Part shown: positions 11,536 through 58,887 of the stretch, piece after piece | How positions within the stretch are numbered: position 1 is the stretch's first letter | How the letters are laid out: each line of letters starts with the position of its first letter | From: Prevotella pallens ATCC 700821 | GTDB taxonomy: Bacteria; Bacteroidota; Bacteroidia; Bacteroidales; Bacteroidaceae | DNA length: 64,000 nt | NCBI RefSeq assembly: GCF_000220255.1 | Contig: NZ_GL982513.1 | Span: 465,019-529,018 of the forward strand | Direction: 5' to 3' | Made by a program: the position numbers and the translations under genes | The notes under the pieces: model-generated | Database searches by the model: none | The model's input: the letters and a program-made list of their open reading frames with translations, nothing else | What the model was told of the DNA's origin: nothing

Positions 11536-11766
11536 TGTTCATTCCTTTATAGTAAATAATTATATACGAATAGGAAAAAGAATGCAGAAATGTTATAGTT
11601 ATTATATACATATTGTATATATGTTTTATGACTTTTCCCGACTGTAAAAGACTGCTATTAGATGTAAACGTAAACTCTATTGAAAGCAATAGTAGTGTTT
11701 ATTTATAAATTAAATAGAATGTCTTAGATGCGTAGAAAAGGTGAGTAGATACAGTTACTTTTGTCT

Positions 11767-11886
11767 CAGATATCTGTAACAGTTCTTTCAGATATCTGTA
11801 ACGTTTCTTTCAGACGTCTGTAACGTTTGTTTTAGATATCTGTCAGTTGCGTTGTAGATATCTGGTATTCGCAGCTTATATTTCAT
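11767..11886 (+). repeat. 22-bp phased palindrome array A
   Basis: Five 10-bp palindromes start at 11767, 11789, 11811, 11833 and 11855, always exactly 22 bases apart: CAGATATCTG twice, CAGACGTCTG, then TAGATATCTG twice. The linkers are also alike (TAACGTTTCTTT type). A degraded sixth unit ending TCAT is possible at 11877. The array lies in the gap between the sucD end and the pdxS start, where no gene is visible (11449-12053). Downstream, TATGC then TTATT resembles the tail shared by arrays B and D. Constant period, palindromic core and recurrence at three other places show this is not chance. It is not a CRISPR. Confidence 0.9.
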
Positions 11887-11970
11887 AACAAGCTACAACT
11901 TTATAATCTCCCTATTTCTCAGAACATTACAACCATTCTTTGCTATGCTCTTATTGTGTACGGATTGAAG

Positions 11971-12012
11971 TAAAAACAAAAGGTATGTCCATTATTAAAT
12001 AGACATACCTTC
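11971..12012 (-). terminator. Terminator of sucCD
   Basis: On the minus strand AAGGTATGTC and GACATACCTT form a perfect 10-bp stem with a 12-base loop, followed by TTGTTTTTA. It lies 42 bases after the sucD stop. Confidence 0.85.
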
Positions 12013-12053
12013 GGTTTAATGTTATTATCAAATGAGAATTGAAGCGGTGTTAC

Positions 12054-12926
12054 TTATTTTCCTAACTTCTGTTTTAGTAGTATAGGAATCTCGTGTGTTT
12101 CGCGCGCAACAGGGATACCTGCTGCCTCGAATGCTGCAACTTTTTCTGCGGCAGTACCAGAACTGCTTGAAATGATGGCTCCAGCATGTCCCATTTGTTT
12201 GCCTTTAGGTGCTTCTCTACCAGAAATAAAGGCAACAACAGGTTTTGTAACATATTGTTTAATATATTCTGCAGCACGTTCTTCAGCATCGCCACCTATT
12301 TCTCCAATGATAGCAATACTGTCTGTTTCAGGATCGTTTTGGAACATTTCGAGCAATTCTTGGAAATAGAGACCAACAATTGGGTCGCCACCAACACCGA
12401 TAGCCGATGATTGTCCGAGTCCTTCGGCTGTAAGTGCTGCTACAACCTGATAAGTTAAAGTTCCTGAGCGGCTGATAACGCCTGTATGTCCTTTCTTGAA
12501 AATATTTGTTGGCATAATACCAACCATACTTTCTCCTGGAGATATTAATCCAGGGCAGTTAGGTCCAATAAGCTGTGCACCTTTAATCTGGATATAGCGA
12601 TATGCTTCAACAACATCGAGTGTAGGTACACCTTCAGTAATACATATAATTAGTTTAATACCAGCATCGGCAGCTTCGAGCATTGCATCTTTTGCAAAAG
12701 CAGCAGGAACGAAGATAACTGATGTGTTAGCGTTGGTTGCTTCAACAGCATCGCGAACAGTGTTGAACACCGGAATACCTGCGACCTCTTGTCCAGCCTT
12801 ACCAGGCGATGTGCCACCTACCACGTTAGTACCATATTCTTTCATCTTTGTAGCGTGGAAGCTACCATCGCGACCAGTAATACCTTGTACTATAAGGCGT
12901 GTATCTTTATTAATTAAAATACTCAT
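12054..12926 (-). CDS. sucD: Succinate-CoA ligase, alpha subunit
   Basis: SucD binds CoA and carries the phosphohistidine in the reversible conversion of succinyl-CoA plus phosphate and NDP to succinate and NTP. The 290-residue protein shows the CoA-binding N-terminus ([23 protein letters not shown]), [23 protein letters not shown], and the active-site histidine in [11 protein letters not shown]. Length is standard. It begins 28 bases after the sucC stop and ends at a strong terminator, completing a sucCD operon. The neighbouring korAB genes act on the same intermediate. Confidence 0.98.
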
Positions 12927-17206: not shown

Positions 17207-17722
17207 AGAATCTTCTCTTTGTTTTAGTTATGGTTAGATTTCGGTGTAAAGGTCTATATAATAATTGAATTAACAAAATATTTTCTGATAAAAAAACGAA
17301 CGAAAAATAGTATGTCGGGAAGTAGAAATTCACATTATGCTTAGTGTTTTTATATTAATACTTTTATTATAACATAAAAAACAACGTTATAGGTGCATAA
17401 CGTTCTTAATATGATTGATTTATGTCAATTTTATAAGTTGCATTTTTTTTGTTTATAAGTCAAGAATTTTATAAAATTCGAAGATAATGGCACTTATAGT
17501 CTTCTAATAATGCAAACAGGATAAATATAGAGGAAAAGATTTTTTTGATTATTCTGTCTTAGTCAATTGACTTTGAAATAGTATTTTTTAGAGTGAAAAG
17601 TTATTGTAGACTCTGTAGAAATTAGGTGAGAAAAGTATAATCTGTGTTTATTGCTTATTTACCTATTAGGTAGAGTATATAAAATATGTAATAAAACTTA
17701 GTAAAATGTAGCTCTTTTGTTT

Positions 17723-17883
17723 CAGTCGTCTCCTACGTTCGTTTCAGACATCTGTCAGCATCGTTTCAGATATCTGTCAGTATCAAATTAGACGTCATTA
17801 CAATTTAGAGCCTTTATGTTCTTATATTATAATAGCTGAGCGATATGTATTTAGCTGAAGATTATGCCTTTCCTTATTCTGCA
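17723..17883 (+). repeat. 22-bp phased palindrome array B with tail
   Basis: Units start at 17723 (CAGTCGTCTC, degraded), 17745 (CAGACATCTG), 17767 (CAGATATCTG) and 17789 (TAGACGTCAT, degraded), each exactly 22 bases apart. A tail follows: TATTTAGCTG at +59 from the last unit, then ATTATGC, then TTATTCTGCA at +85. Array D has the same tail words at the same distances. The array lies in the 1-kb gap between korA and the LRR gene at 18221, in which I support no protein gene. Confidence 0.88.
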
Positions 17884-18078
17884 ATATTTTGCTTTAGGTA
17901 TTATTATAAGCTTCTGTTTTTCAATATTCTATTCCCTATGTGGTTGTATGTGGCTGGAATCTATTACAACAATCTTCTTTTCTACGCAGCCTTCTTTTTG
18001 TTTAAATGGTTCATTGTATACCAATACCTTGATATTTTAGCATCTTTTTTCGTGTACATTGTTTTTTGAGATGTTTAG

Positions 18079-25383: not shown

Positions 25384-25481
25384 CAGATATCTGTCCCGAA
25401 TGTGATAGACATCTAAAACGAACGCGACAGACATCTAAAACGAACGTGACAGATATCTAAAACATACGTGATAGACGTCTA
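25384..25481 (-). repeat. 22-bp phased palindrome array C (inverted)
   Basis: Five palindromes start at 25384, 25406, 25428, 25450 and 25472, exactly 22 bases apart: CAGATATCTG, TAGACATCTA, CAGACATCTA, CAGATATCTA, TAGACGTCTA. The linkers match those of arrays A, B and D only when read on the minus strand (GTCACGTTCGTTT type). The array lies between two genes that converge on it (the third DUF4252 gene and the ATPase gene). A tail like that of B and D is not visible. No other feature was found in 25317-25606. Confidence 0.9.
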
Positions 25482-38976: not shown

Positions 38977-39004
38977 TTTGTAGAATGTATATATTCTGTT
39001 TTAT

Positions 39005-39197
39005 CCCAAATAGGTAATTAGAGCCTAAACATATTTTGTTTTATTATCGAGTAGATTGTCTGTCTTTGCAATGCAGGCGTAGCGGGCTACGTCAAGTTAC
39101 AAAGGCAGACAAGATGCCGATAAGAAAATAAACGATGTTAGGAAACAATCCATAGTAATAAGAACTATACATATTGTGGTCTAATTACGTATTTGGG
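39005..39197. mobile_element. 193-bp MITE-like element, copy 1
   Basis: The element starts CCCAAATAGGTAATTAGA and ends TCTAATTACGTATTTGGG: 18-bp inverted ends (one mismatch). Internal sequence folds: GTCTGTCTTTG with CAAAGGCAGAC, around a CGTAGC/GCTACG stem. It has no coding capacity. A TTTAT pentamer (39000-39004) precedes it. Copy 2 follows after TTTAA (39198-39202). Confidence 0.8.
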
Positions 39198-39202
39198 TTT
39201 AA

Positions 39203-39395
39203 CCCAAATACGTAATTAGAGCCTAAACATATTTTGTTTTATTATCGAGTAGATTGTCTGTCTTTGCAATGCAGGCGTAGCGGGCTACGTCAAGTTACAA
39301 AGGCAGACAAGATGCCGATAAGAAAATAAATGATGTTAGGAAACAATCCATAATAATAATAACTATTCATATTGTGTTCTAATTACGCATTTGGG
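39203..39395. mobile_element. 193-bp MITE-like element, copy 2
   Basis: Same length and near-identical sequence as copy 1 at a 198-bp offset, starting CCCAAATACGTAATTAGA and ending TCTAATTACGCATTTGGG. TTTAT (39396-39400) follows it and equals the pentamer before copy 1, as a target-site duplication would. The tandem state suggests insertion into the duplicated target or unequal crossing-over. A diverged partial third copy may follow at 39405-39500. Confidence 0.8.
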
Positions 39396-39590
39396 TTTAT
39401 TTTATGGCAGATTTATTTGGTTCTTAACGAAGGTGTAGCCAATAACGGCAAGTTAGAAAGATAACCAGAATTGGCTTACAAGAATATAAAAGATGATGGG
39501 AAGATGTAATAGTATAAACCAACGTTTGATACTGTTATGGTATAATGATTTATTAGAGATAGAACACCGCAAATAGTTATAAAAATCAGT

Positions 39591-39773
39591 CAGACGTTAG
39601 TTCCTTTTTTCTCAGATATCTGTAACGCTTGTTTCAGATATCTATCCCGTTCGTCTCAGATATCTGAAAGTTTCGTTTTAGACATCATAAAAAGCAACAA
39701 CATTTGTGATTCTATATTTTAGCACCTAAAAAACGTTTATTTAGCTGTATATTATGCAATGCGTTATTCTGCA
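39591..39773 (+). repeat. 22-bp phased palindrome array D with tail
   Basis: Units start at 39591 (CAGACGTTAG, degraded), 39613 (CAGATATCTG), 39635 (CAGATATCTA), 39657 (CAGATATCTG) and 39679 (TAGACATCAT, degraded), each 22 bases apart. Tail words TATTTAGCTG (+59 from the last unit), ATTATGC and TTATTCTGCA (+85) match array B exactly in spacing. It lies in the gap between sufS and the beta-barrel gene (38783-40341), where no gene is supported. Confidence 0.9.
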
Positions 39774-40187
39774 CTGTTTTTATTTGTATGTTGTTGTAAA
39801 CAGCTTTATAACAACGTGTTGTTAGGTGTTTTGTGGTGTAAAAGCGAAATTCTTTACACTCAATTTATTTTATAAAGTCTCTCCACTTTTCGTCATTTCT
39901 CTCCAATCCGTCAGTTCTATCAGTAGACTTCATAGTCTTTATAACCTGCATAACGCATTATGCGCTTATTGTATAGAAAGTGGCTCTACAACAAAACAGA
40001 AACAGGCTATGACTATTGACTGCCTAAATTTATCATTCCTTCATATCAGTTACCAATACATATTATAGACCTGCTGGTATATAAATAATACTATACGATG
40101 TGGGCAAAACAACAAACGATGATATTAAGATTTAAGGATTGGTTTATTATGAATAAAAGTTAAATTTATATCAATGTAACACTAATG

Positions 40188-43236: not shown

Positions 43237-45435
43237 ATGTTAAACTCATTTCCTTTTTTAAAGCAACGTGATTCAATGCACTGTGGAATTACTTGTTTAC
43301 AAATGATATGTAGGTATTTTGGAAAAGACCATATCTCTATATATCTGAGGAAACGAAGCTTTTGTACAAATGAAGGAATCTCACTATTTGCTATTACTCA
43401 GATAGCAAATGAAATAGGACTTAAGTCTCTTTCTTTGAAGACTTCTATAGGTGCATTAGAAAATTCAAAATTACCTTGTATTCTTCATTGGAATCAAAAA
43501 CACTTTGTGGTGTTATACAAGGTTAAGAATAATAAAATGTTCTATGTCGCAGACCCTGCTAAAGGTCTTTTAAAATATAGCCTTGAGGATTTAAAAAAGC
43601 ATTGGATTAGTATAAATTCTGAAGGTACAGAAGAAGGAATTGCGATGTTTTTAGAACCAACTCCTGAATTTTATAAGATAACAACTAATGACAAACACGA
43701 AAGTGAAAGGTCATTTAAATTTCTCTTTGGTTACATAAAAAAATATCGTAAATATTTTGGACAGATTGTTTTAGGGCTACTTGCTGGAAGCTTATTACAG
43801 CTTATTTTTCCTTTTCTTACCCAAGCGATTGTGGATGTGGGTATAAAAAAGCAAAATATAGGTTTTATTTGGTTGATATTATTAGGACAATTGGTGTTGA
43901 CGATAAGCAGTACGGCTATCAACTTTATACGTAGTTGGTTGCTGCTTCATATATCAATGCGCATTAATATTTCATTATTGAGCGACTTCTTTATTAAACT
44001 CTTGAAACTACCGATGTCGTTTTTCGATACAAAGTTGATAGGTGATTTAATGCAACGTATGGGAGACCATGGTCGCGTGAATGATTTTCTAATGCACCAA
44101 ACGCTCAGCATTGTCTTCTCGTTCTTTACATTTATAGTGTTTAGTATCGTACTATTATTTTATAATTGGGTGATATTTTCTATTTTTGTTTTGGGAGGTC
44201 TGTTCTATGGTGGTTGGCTTGTTCTCTTTCTTAGACGAAGAGAAGCACTTAATTATGAACTTTTTGAACAGCAAGCTATAAACAGCAACAAAACTTACGA
44301 ATTTATTACTTCTATGCAAGAAATAAAACTTCAGAATTGTGAACAACGCCGTCGTTGGGAATGGGAAGATATTCAAGCAGATCTTTTTGGTGTACAGATG
44401 AAATCACTGAAACTTCAGCAAACACAAGAAGCTGGTAGTGTATTTATTAACGAACTCAAAAATATAGTCATAACAGTTGTTGCTGCTACAGCTGTAATAC
44501 ATGGACAACTTACTTTGGGTATGATGCTTGCTGTTCAATACATTATTGGTCAGCTCAATTCTCCTGTTGAACAACTGATGGGATTCTTTTATAATGTACA
44601 AGATGTAAAAATTAGCCTTGAACGTATAAATGAAATTCATCGCATGGATGATGAAAATGGAAAGAATGGTTTGAAAGAGGCTGTAAAAGAAGATAACAAA
44701 GGAATTGATTTAGAAGAAATTATTTTTAAATACGATCACTATGCTCCAAAAAATATTATCGACAATGTTAAACTTAGTATTCCTAAGGGAAAAGTAACCG
44801 CCATTGTTGGAGCATCGGGTAGCGGAAAAACAACATTGATAAAATTAATGTTGGGTTATTATCCTGTCTTGAATGGACGAATTTCTATTGGTGAAACCGA
44901 TATAAATACATTAAATAAAAAATGGTGGCGTAGTCAGTGTGGCGTAGTAATGCAAGATGGTGTTATTTTTTCAGAATCAATTGAACGCAATATTGCTGTT
45001 GATGATAATGAAATTGATAAAGGACGATTGGAAAAAGCAGCTGAGATAGCTTGTATAAAGGAATATGTTATGGGGCTACCTTTAAAGTATAATACCAAGA
45101 TAGGACGTGATGGAATTGGCTTGAGTCAAGGACAAAAGCAACGAGTCTTGATAGCAAGAGCTGTATATAAAAACCCTGATTACATATTTTTTGATGAGGC
45201 TACCAATTCGCTTGATGCTAACAATGAACGTATGATAGTAGAAAACCTTAATGATTTTTATAAAGGTAAAACTGTAATTATTGTGGCACACCGACTTAGT
45301 ACGGTTAAGAATGCTGACCAAATAGTGGTTTTAGATAAAGGAAGAGTTATGGAAGTTGGAAATCATGAACAACTTACTAAGAAGCGTGGTGCATACTACA
45401 ATCTTGTGAAAAACCAATTGGAGTTGGGTTCTTAA
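43237..45435 (+). CDS. Peptidase C39-containing ABC exporter (bacteriocin-type)
   Basis: This 732-residue protein joins a C39 cysteine peptidase, a six-helix membrane domain and an ATPase. The peptidase part has Q10, catalytic C16 in DSMHCGITC, H89 (WNQKHFVVL) and D106 (YVADPAKG). Membrane segments lie about 165-450. The nucleotide domain has Walker A GASGSGKTT (about 523), signature LSQGQKQRVLIARA and Walker B YIFFDEATNSLD, with the H-loop in VAHRLS. Such exporters cut leader peptides after a double-glycine and export the mature peptide. The substrate is not in an obvious adjacent gene. It is followed 11 bases later by a stub of an adaptor gene. Confidence 0.94.
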   Translation: MLNSFPFLKQRDSMHCGITCLQMICRYFGKDHISIYLRKRSFCTNEGISLFAITQIANEIGLKSLSLKTSIGALENSKLPCILHWNQKHFVVLYKVKNNKMFYVADPAKGLLKYSLEDLKKHWISINSEGTEEGIAMFLEPTPEFYKITTNDKHESERSFKFLFGYIKKYRKYFGQIVLGLLAGSLLQLIFPFLTQAIVDVGIKKQNIGFIWLILLGQLVLTISSTAINFIRSWLLLHISMRINISLLSDFFIKLLKLPMSFFDTKLIGDLMQRMGDHGRVNDFLMHQTLSIVFSFFTFIVFSIVLLFYNWVIFSIFVLGGLFYGGWLVLFLRRREALNYELFEQQAINSNKTYEFITSMQEIKLQNCEQRRRWEWEDIQADLFGVQMKSLKLQQTQEAGSVFINELKNIVITVVAATAVIHGQLTLGMMLAVQYIIGQLNSPVEQLMGFFYNVQDVKISLERINEIHRMDDENGKNGLKEAVKEDNKGIDLEEIIFKYDHYAPKNIIDNVKLSIPKGKVTAIVGASGSGKTTLIKLMLGYYPVLNGRISIGETDINTLNKKWWRSQCGVVMQDGVIFSESIERNIAVDDNEIDKGRLEKAAEIACIKEYVMGLPLKYNTKIGRDGIGLSQGQKQRVLIARAVYKNPDYIFFDEATNSLDANNERMIVENLNDFYKGKTVIIVAHRLSTVKNADQIVVLDKGRVMEVGNHEQLTKKRGAYYNLVKNQLELGS

Positions 45436-45446
45436 TAAAAAAGATT

Positions 45447-45614
45447 ATGGCAGATGATAAAATAGATTATCGAAGTGAGAAAATTCGTAATATAATAAAC
45501 GAACCTCCTTCAAAAATTATTTGTTATGGAATAACGATAATTAGTATTGTGCTTTCGGTACTTATAGCTCTTGTTTATTTAATAATAAGAAATACTTCAT
45601 ACATTGTCATTTAA
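45447..45614 (+). pseudogene. N-terminal stub of an HlyD-type membrane fusion protein
   Basis: This 55-residue frame begins MADDKIDYRSEKIRNIINEP and continues into one membrane segment (CYGITIISIVLSVLIALVYL, ending SYIVI). The pattern of a basic RSE-type start, a Pro-Pro motif and a single membrane helix is that of the start of HlyD adaptors that partner C39 exporters in Bacteroidetes. A full adaptor is about 400 residues; here the periplasmic part is absent and the following 300 bases show no continuing frame. It starts 11 bases after the exporter stop codon, so it was or is cotranscribed. It could instead be a small accessory membrane protein. Confidence 0.6.
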
Positions 45615-57955: not shown

Positions 57956-58887
57956 TATATTGTTCTTAGTTTTTATTATTATTTGTGAAGAAGTTATTTT
58001 CTTACGGATAGATAAAATAATTTTATCTTGTTGTTTATTCGTAAAGGCAAGAATTACATACTCCCCTTTCATTTCATTGTTGGTCCAATTATTTGGGCAG
58101 ATCGTAATAATATGCTTTTTTCTAATATTCTCTATATGCAAATTTATGAATATTATTCTAAAAAGTTATCTCTTTTCTTTGTTTTTAATAAATATCAACT
58201 ATTAACCGTCGTGTTTTTATACTTACTTTATTACTAAAGTATATTTAGACTCCCATTCTAAAACTTTATTTAACTTTGCTTATTCTTTTAGTAGTTCACC
58301 ATTTGTAGCGTCTATTTGTATAGAGAAAATAGCTAAAAATGGAGTTTGCAAATTGTTAGTTGTCAGATAATTATATGGAGGGTGGAATTTATAATAAGAA
58401 ATTATTTTTTTATATTATAAAATCGTTGTTTTTATATTACAAAAAAATAATTTTCCATATAAAATTAGGCACATATAACCAATGGTTTTGGACAACTCTT
58501 TTTGAATATTGCCGACTGTACAATAATTCAAGTGGAAAGCCACAACAAATTATATAGAAAAGAAAGACATAGAAAGTTTTTCTATAATAAAGTATAGCTT
58601 TAATAAATTATTTAATTAGATATAAACACTGAACGGTGTTGTTGAAATTAAAGCATTTACTTTGTTAATAGTTTAATTTCCAGTTGTCTTTTGTATTCTT
58701 ATTGATATTTTAATAGCCTTTTAGCATAGTCGTAGTTCGTATGTTTTTGTAATAAAGTTAATCAATCAGCTCAAAATATTCCGAGTGTATAATGGCGTTT
58801 AGAGTTAAATAGTTCTCTCTCAAAAGGTTTTTAAAGAAATAAATCTAAAAAAAGCAAGAATAAAGTCTTGTTTTTAAAAATTATAGC
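57956..58887. other. Long AT-rich gap without supported gene
   Basis: Between the barrel remnant and the next promoter I find only short, low-complexity frames and no RNA gene. A weak minus-strand -7-like box (TAAATTTG, 58139-58146) may have driven the parent of the remnant. Confidence 0.5.

Follow-up and report, generated by a model that had tools for sequence, protein, structure and literature searches.

What are the short palindromes that recur at a constant step of 22 bp between genes of Prevotella pallens ATCC 700821, and are they remnants of a mobile element or sites kept for a present function? The stretch of DNA analysed here (the window, 64,000 nucleotides) corresponds to C1:465019-529018 of a host genome (G000) of 3.13 Mb in 40 contigs. 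The original prediction placed four arrays in it, at 11767, 17723, 25384 and 39591, and all four are present with 22-bp steps. For the first one, array A, the starts of the five units were also given correctly (CAGATATCTG at 11767 and 11789, CAGACGTCTG at 11811, TAGATATCTG at 11833 and 11855), but not all of these are the 10-bp palindromes described: the symmetric core comprises 8 bp and the TAGATATCTG units are imperfect at 10. Similarly, of the four or five units announced for each array five are indeed found at 25384, but the outer units at 17723 and 39591 are degenerate. The core AGAYRTCT occurs 19 times in the window compared with 3.57 expected, and the maximum in 100 shuffles was 8.

Anatomy of a dispersed element

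Only the arrays had been seen before. They form the core of a larger MITE-like element that is dispersed over the genome and also has a leader, a tail and terminal inverted repeats: once the arrays were oriented by their linker GTCACGTTCGTYTC, a conserved leader and a conserved tail emerged. The 22-bp unit of the array is AGATATCTGTCACGTTCGTYTC; as a rule three AGAYRTCT dyads in the 22-bp register are perfect, and a terminal AGAYRTCA closes the series. The leader extends over about 113 bp between the end TTCAGTAGAAAATAG and the first unit, the tail over about 236 bp past the last perfect unit. The whole element measures roughly 370-480 bp, the best end matches being 372-481 bp apart in 40 copies displayed, many of them with one poor end. 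Terminal inverted repeats of the GGYTCARTAGAAAAKAG type are present and imperfect. With up to 4 mismatches in 15 positions the left end is recognized in 28 of 75 copies and the right end in 26 of 75 (3 of 75 and 6 of 75, respectively, in a shifted null stretch), and most of these copies no longer keep both ends. By eye, no target-site duplication was seen in the 40 copies displayed; as the copies are old, such duplications may have been lost.

Element B (17611..17989, plus strand, about 379 bp) is the best preserved one in the window. Its ends CTCTGTAGAAATTAGGTG (left) and CTTCTTTTCTACGCAG (right) are imperfect terminal inverted repeats with 3 and 4 mismatches in 15, respectively, and its array (17723..17797, plus strand) consists of a degenerate unit, AGACATCT, AGATATCT and the terminal AGACGTCA. 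In elements A and D leader and tail are partly kept. The five 22-bp units of array A with their AGAYRTCT core (11767..11864, plus strand) are followed by a degenerate terminal unit ATATTTCA at 11878-11885 and preceded by a diverged copy of the leader (11633..11766, plus strand; profile match 11578-11797, E 1.1e-25). The decayed tail of element A (11865..12053, plus strand) corresponds to a tail-profile match at 11813-12097 (E 1.2e-22) that extends into the end of sucD. Array D (39591..39687, plus strand) starts with the degenerate AGACGTTA, continues with three perfect units at 39614, 39636 and 39658 and ends with the terminal AGACATCA at 39680. Profile support for its leader is confined to the 3' part (39556..39590, plus strand; match 39556-39643, E 8.2e-22), with decayed sequence further upstream, and its tail covers 39688..39933 (plus strand; match 39614-39933, E 8.1e-57). 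Array C (25384..25481, minus strand) comprises five units in reversed linker orientation, and its flanks are so strongly decayed that little is kept besides the array.

Further repeats are found in the same window. A 198-bp repeat at 39000-39399 is present in two head-to-tail copies (96% matches) and has an internal inverted repeat GTCTGTCTTTG...CAAAGGCAGAC; similar sequence occurs in the tails of two other element loci (L006 and L023), so this is probably another dispersed family. Tandem repeats with other AT-rich units are located at 45435-45484 (period 22) and 58388-58445 (period 21).

Copy number and genomic context

In the whole host genome the pattern AGAYRTCT-N14-AGAYRTCT gives 332 pairs compared with 4 for the reversed control. 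Pairs of AGATATCT exactly 22 bp apart amount to 274, and with any spacing from 12 to 42 bp the number is again 274 (control 4) in a count that possibly takes one match per start; among the matches listed all lie at 22 bp. Dividing the 332 pair hits by 2.35 per array (176 perfect pairs in 75 arrays) leads to an estimate of about 140 arrays. The 75 arrays were collected via the pair pattern (36, i.e., 32 loci and the four of the window) or via a motif of the tail (39), and unit conservation in this set is biased because 36 of them were picked by the pair pattern itself. The number of perfect units is narrow but not fixed, ranging from two to five (three in 49 of 75 arrays, four in 15, five in 8 and two in 3).

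Not a single one of the 75 arrays lies inside a predicted ORF of at least 90 aa. With respect to flanking genes (uncurated long-ORF calls) 38 sites are codirectional, 28 convergent and 9 divergent. Since convergent and divergent gaps are expected to be equal in number genome-wide, the ratio of 28 to 9 (p.0026) suggests either promoter avoidance or a preference for gene ends. Such an excess at convergent genes, which is seen in the near relatives as well, would also suit a transcribed chain of hairpins, whose units would pair with their neighbours in the RNA and serve to terminate transcription or to stabilise 3' ends. Against this stands the orientation of the codirectional arrays, 18 of them on the same and 20 on the opposite strand to their neighbours, i.e., there is no strand preference.

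Along the chromosome arrays are somewhat denser at 1.8-2.1 Mb, the dnaA match being located at C1:1833296, and contig C2 is slightly poor in tail motifs (8 of 58, p.049), but array positions in the host genome follow no clean pattern relative to dnaA. One tail motif is found about 560 bp upstream of the dnaA match (G000:C1:1832720-1834660, L123). Downstream of sucD an array of period 21-23 was present within 900 bp in 7 of 30 species, with units that are all different and only 2 copies in two of them; as 7 of 30 is about the background density, no conserved position below sucD is claimed.

Short, dispersed, intergenic and palindromic sequences are also typical of REP/REPIN elements mobilised by a RAYT (Y1) transposase. 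The Y1_Tnp domain (PF01797) was found in none of five genomes (the own one and four near relatives), whereas it is present in 5 of 14 control genomes. Barring an unrecognised RAYT, this contradicts a REP/RAYT origin, and we regard such an origin as extremely improbable.

Conservation of dyads and spacing

The tail motif TTAGAYRTCAYANNANA has 58 matches in the genome (control 0). Forty loci (L109-L148, on C1 from about 1.10 Mb onward and on C2) were chosen by this motif alone, and the other 18 matches fall in the part already sampled through arrays. Two of the 40 loci are without array. Counted upstream from the tail, unit −1 is perfect in 38 of 40 loci, unit −2 in 37, unit −3 in 38 and unit −4 in 7; only unit −1 is biased by selection because 38 loci were kept on at most 2 mismatches in that unit. 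Mean column identity decreases from.922 in the palindromes (units −1 and −2) to.757 in the linkers and.639 in the tail. Internal indels are found in 2 of 38 arrays compared with 20 of 38 tail stretches of equal length (66 bp; Fisher p 7e-6). Pairwise identity of the tails has a median of.645 and a maximum of.786, the lowest values representing failed alignments, and there are no young pairs. Simple decay at the rate of the tail gives about 2e-5 for the 24 conserved sites. Unconstrained decay would not leave perfect dyads and rare indels beside tails of such age, and thus the palindromes and their spacing appear to be constrained in place.

The strongest rival explanation is an ordinary MITE with a minisatellite, in which the palindromes serve mobilisation only, for example as internal sites for transposase or host factors, and have no present function in place. 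The dyads would then look conserved via gene conversion, which could indeed account for such a pattern, or because old lineages were active until late. Terminal inverted repeats are in line with this reading. The tails speak against it, since not even the most similar pair is young and yet three dyads are each perfect in 37-38 of 40 loci, and so do the value obtained for simple decay and the target-site duplications not seen by eye in the AGATATCT family. All in all we consider this explanation possible but rather unlikely.

Covariation within the units

The 75 arrays contain 253 perfect units among 370. Their central base pair is TA in 219, CG in 21, CA in 8 and TG in 5 units, so that 240 are symmetric compared with 204.0 in shuffles, a number reached by none of 5000. 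With one unit per array 71 of 75 are symmetric compared with 60.7. Units with CG occur in 14 of 75 arrays, as a single one in 9, and are usually found next to TA units. Hence the central bases change jointly from TA to CG and the units stay symmetric, as a dimer that reads both half-sites would enforce. The statistic counts units rather than independent events; it is conditional on AGAYRTCT and therefore free of the array-selection bias. Mutation at CpG could be partly responsible for the symmetric TA/CG pair.

Neighbouring units are slightly alike (322 of 352 compared with 315.7, reached by 2.85% of shuffles), but this excess is weak beside the strong covariation within the unit. The chain of hairpins, already offered as an alternative by the original prediction, thus fits less well than the dimer, because covariation is mainly found within units and strand preference is absent. 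Moreover, an 8-bp palindrome without loop cannot fold alone, RNA hairpins should tolerate indels in the linkers, and Rfam gives no match at the arrays (at gathering scores the window contains just one match, a tRNA at 55-128). We judge transcribed hairpins to be improbable.

Other dyads in the same register

Among 398 sampled genomes of the genus, SucD is most similar in G017 (99%), G084 (98%), G377 (97%) and G163 (96%). It had been considered that such arrays might be equally common in unrelated genomes, but AGATATCT pairs were found in none of 99 other genomes. Pairs of AGAYRTCT occur in 10 of 200 genomes of the genus including the own one, the other nine containing at most 3 each, and they are absent from G017, G084 and G163 (three of the four nearest genomes compared). 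Arrays of other sequence with 22-bp steps are abundant in three of the four near relatives, G163 being poorer.

Pairs of TTTTRCNNNGCAAAA reach 205 strand-hits in G084, 131 in G017, 56 in G377, 6 in the own genome and 0 in G163 (control 0), with symmetric places counted twice. Inspection of 14 copies by eye shows dyads at successive 22-bp steps in the TTTTGCnnnGCAAAA (TTTTGC) family of G084, G017 and G377, all within a conserved region some 190 bp long. Its outer linkers mostly switch jointly between GCGGCTS/SAGCCGC and SCGTAGG/CCTACGS, like a nested inverted repeat (G084/G017, L179-L185). A 23-bp GYAACGGAGTTACG family is found in G017 only (19 strand-hits).

A further family has the dyad TACRYGTA, with 109 pairs in G084, 102 in G017, 60 in the own genome and 0 in both G377 and G163 (controls 0-5). 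These are elements of about 90 bp (G084, L260-L279), usually with four dyads at 22 bp: among 20 copies fetched from G084 four units stand in register in 19 and five in one, and all four are perfect in 13 copies. They are flanked by AAATTAYT...ARTAATTT with unrelated DNA beyond, and 8 of them are convergent, 8 codirectional and 4 divergent. The centres of the units are mostly asymmetric (AC 38, GT 34, AT 3), and AAATATTT palindromes lie midway between many dyads, in an 11-bp half-register. No description of this family was found in the open-access literature searched.

These families bear on two of the alternatives. For pairing in RNA, a favourable point is that the outer linkers of the TTTTGC family are by eye largely complementary and change in concert, GCGGCTS going with SAGCCGC and SCGTAGG with CCTACGS (at least one copy, on L182, is a misfit); the centres of TACRYGTA units are not favourable, as they are Watson-Crick in 4 of 17 outer and 3 of 15 inner pairs, without excess over chance. 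A register common to families with unrelated dyads could also indicate an element of DNA shape or supercoiling (phased bends, gyrase or HU sites) in which the 22 bp or their 11-bp half outweigh any specific dimer, and TTTT/AAAA tracts of the PINSR-like (TTTTGC) family as well as the AAATATTT centres of the TACRYGTA family are spaced about 11 bp apart by eye. However, the bases of AGAYRTCT are conserved exactly and covary as pairs, which is sequence-specific behaviour, and clear A-tracts are missing from AGATATCT units, so that we hold this idea to be quite improbable, a little more so than the hairpins. In related species the register is occupied by other dyads, and this suggests that the geometry of a platform persists and the recognised sequence turns over.

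Distribution in Prevotella and other Bacteroidota

Tandem repeats in noncoding DNA were surveyed with TRF (score at least 50) in stretches picked by position or by a sucD or dnaA match; some of the sucD regions were not new to the analysis, and 2 of the 19 near arrays and 3 of the 20 far ones were already known from them. A period of 21-23 was found for 6 of 8 TRF arrays in the own window (which holds the finding, so that this sample is not independent). The four near relatives (28.2 kb of noncoding DNA) contributed 22 arrays, 19 of them with this period, and 20 far Prevotella (56.9 kb) contributed 35, of which 20 had it (11 of 20 genomes). Outside the genus the corresponding numbers are 2 of 7 for 20 other Bacteroidales (34.6 kb), 1 of 1 for 20 other Bacteroidota (36.6 kb) and zero for Escherichia coli (3.6 kb noncoding). 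The density is 39 arrays per 85.1 kb in Prevotella compared with 3 per 71.2 kb in other Bacteroidota (p 7e-8; 34 and 3, p 1e-6, if the five previously seen are subtracted), and far Prevotella alone differ from other Bacteroidales with 17 per 56.9 kb and 2 per 34.6 kb (p.016). The share of this period among noncoding tandem arrays is not significantly different (39 of 57 in Prevotella, 3 of 8 in other Bacteroidota, p.12). Within the sampled stretches, repeats of this period are thus common in noncoding DNA of Prevotella and scarce in that of other Bacteroidota.

A shuffle test for dyads on TRF consensus units was positive (p<=.05) for 9 of 19 arrays of near Prevotella (chi2 99.8, 38 df), several of which are copies of one family. 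It was not positive for far Prevotella (3 of 20; chi2 51.3, 40 df), nor for the three arrays from outside the genus (0 of 3) or for the own window (0 of 6), where the test with its 7-bp arms is ill adapted to a palindrome of 8 bp. Beyond the near relatives there is therefore no support for a dyad in each 22-bp unit. In these relatives, arrays per kb amount to 1.36 in convergent (8),.45 in codirectional (10) and 0 in divergent gaps (18 of 19 placed); the values of.44,.26 and.34 in far Prevotella (5 convergent, 8 codirectional and 6 divergent; 19 of 20 placed) reveal no clear bias.

Three AGAYRTCT units at 22 bp are present in at least 47 stretches of the genome contigs searched. Among the matches listed 21 of 47 belong to one Bacteroides MAG, 'Candidatus Bacteroides intestinavium', so that the absence of the arrays from other genomes holds for AGATATCT pairs, but AGAYRTCT triplets are not unique to the host. 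Other listed matches are from Porphyromonas, Parabacteroides, Paraprevotella and unnamed Bacteroidales and have unrelated linkers, and several from outside Bacteroidota look by eye like plain short repeats. A phage origin was rejected, as the two matches in viral contigs (L040, L041) belong to another repeat, in which AGATGTCT/AGACGTCT recur at intervals of about 11 bp. The 21 loci of the Bacteroides MAG include seven elements of 172-211 bp with both ends and a terminal inverted repeat ACCCGTTGGCGGAATTA, in which AGATATC units are 22 bp apart (with an extra one at 35 bp in L085) and identical bases flank some copies (ATTATAA, TAAATAT). This MITE looks young and its terminal inverted repeats comprise 17 bp (L064, L073, L074, L077, L082, L085, L089). 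Such an array can consequently ride on a clean MITE, which is a point for the reading as a mere mobile element and equally for the dimer reading preferred below.

Published relatives

That no named repeat has this form holds only in part, since PINSR of P. intermedia and BrickBuilt of Porphyromonas gingivalis are named relatives in kind. In the searchable part of the open-access PMC literature no description of the family or of the shared 22-bp register was found, and where compared its sequence matches neither of the two. PINSR is described as a 188-bp intergenic repeat with 177-184 copies per genome in P. intermedia that also occurs in P. nigrescens and was detected by PCR in P. falsenii and P. 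disiens; it is clade-restricted and probably non-coding, no function has been assigned to it, and according to the authors it has no terminal inverted repeats (PMC4755523). The TTTTGC family is very probably PINSR, to judge from length, copy number and clade, which agree. With this family as stand-in, PINSR and the AGATATCT element are both intergenic, dispersed, clade-restricted and probably non-coding, but their sequences are unrelated without visible likeness, and the strand-hits of the PINSR-like family number 6 in the own genome compared with 205 in G084. Furthermore, the AGATATCT element has imperfect terminal inverted repeats, which PINSR reportedly lacks, and the 22-bp register of the dyads in the PINSR-like family is our present reading and is not mentioned in the portions of the PINSR paper at hand (PMC4755523).

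BrickBuilt, as far as the available text tells, consists of leader, tandem units and tail with inverted-repeat ends, is always intergenic and is restricted to P. gingivalis and P. gulae; its unit of 23 nt is AGAYCATARTATCCTCTCRTRTG, its terminal inverted repeat is of the GAGACCTTTGCA type, ATCC 33277 contains 19 copies, and the number of units varies widely, from 1 to 22.8 (PMC4596501). The string 'palindrom' does not occur in the main text (PMC4596501). The leader-repeats-tail plan, the inverted-repeat ends and the intergenic position are shared with the AGATATCT element, and this resemblance again favours an ordinary MITE; the stem-loops predicted for BrickBuilt repeats in the text available favour hairpins. 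As far as that text shows, the two elements differ in the unit (23 nt compared with the 22 bp of the array) and in their ends. Looking further afield, pneumococcus has BOX elements (boxA-boxBn-boxC) at about a hundred intergenic places, which have the modular leader, repeats and tail in common with the AGATATCT element, but their middle unit comprises 45 bp and they are not known to have a 22-bp dyad register. Iterons and the end repeats of Tn7 and Mu are protein sites at steps of about 22 bp, i.e., two turns, like the arrays; unlike these they are not known to be palindromic or to occur in 100 or more dispersed chromosomal intergenic copies.

A putative platform for dimeric proteins

The copies themselves show that the element is dispersed, that it is built of leader, array and tail with imperfect terminal inverted repeats, that its dyads and their spacing are better conserved than the rest of it, and that covariation occurs within the unit. 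Our preferred reading, which we put forward tentatively and with somewhat less than even confidence, takes the MITE-like element to be old, dispersed and non-coding and sees its functional core in the arrays, each dyad being bound by a putative dimeric protein. According to this model a sequence-specific dimer would occupy each of the three to five dyads at the estimated 140 intergenic sites, and the step of about two turns would set the dimers on one face of the DNA and permit cooperative assembly. Mobile elements would have spread the platform and selection would keep it, its probable target being the binding itself, at intergenic places biased towards convergent gene ends. The original proposal of one dimer per unit on one helix face is, on sequence grounds, compatible with the covariation within units, the rarity of indels and the constant step of 22 bp, and the recurrence of this step with other dyads is a further point in its favour. 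Points that weaken the reading are the possible part played by gene conversion, the dyad test that was positive for near Prevotella alone, the lack of a convergent bias in far Prevotella, the slight likeness of neighbouring units and the mostly asymmetric centres in the TACRYGTA family.

A broader and more speculative view, which we consider rather doubtful, is that Prevotella possesses intergenic platforms defined by their geometry, i.e., a strict 22-bp register of three to five dyads, and that the clades swap the dyad itself (AGAYRTCT, TTTTGCnnnGCAAAA, TACRYGTA and others). Fast-evolving DNA-binding proteins would co-evolve with these dyads and serve either to organise the chromosome or to insulate the ends of genes. 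Repeats dispersed between genes are commonly regarded as decaying mobile debris. Here, dyads and spacing outlast the decay of the element in nearly every copy tested, and unrelated families of sister species share the register. One member of this repeat class is already published from P. intermedia, where its function was not given. The preferred reading makes a testable prediction for the class, namely that one protein should bind along one face of the DNA and that its binding should depend on the 22-bp step.
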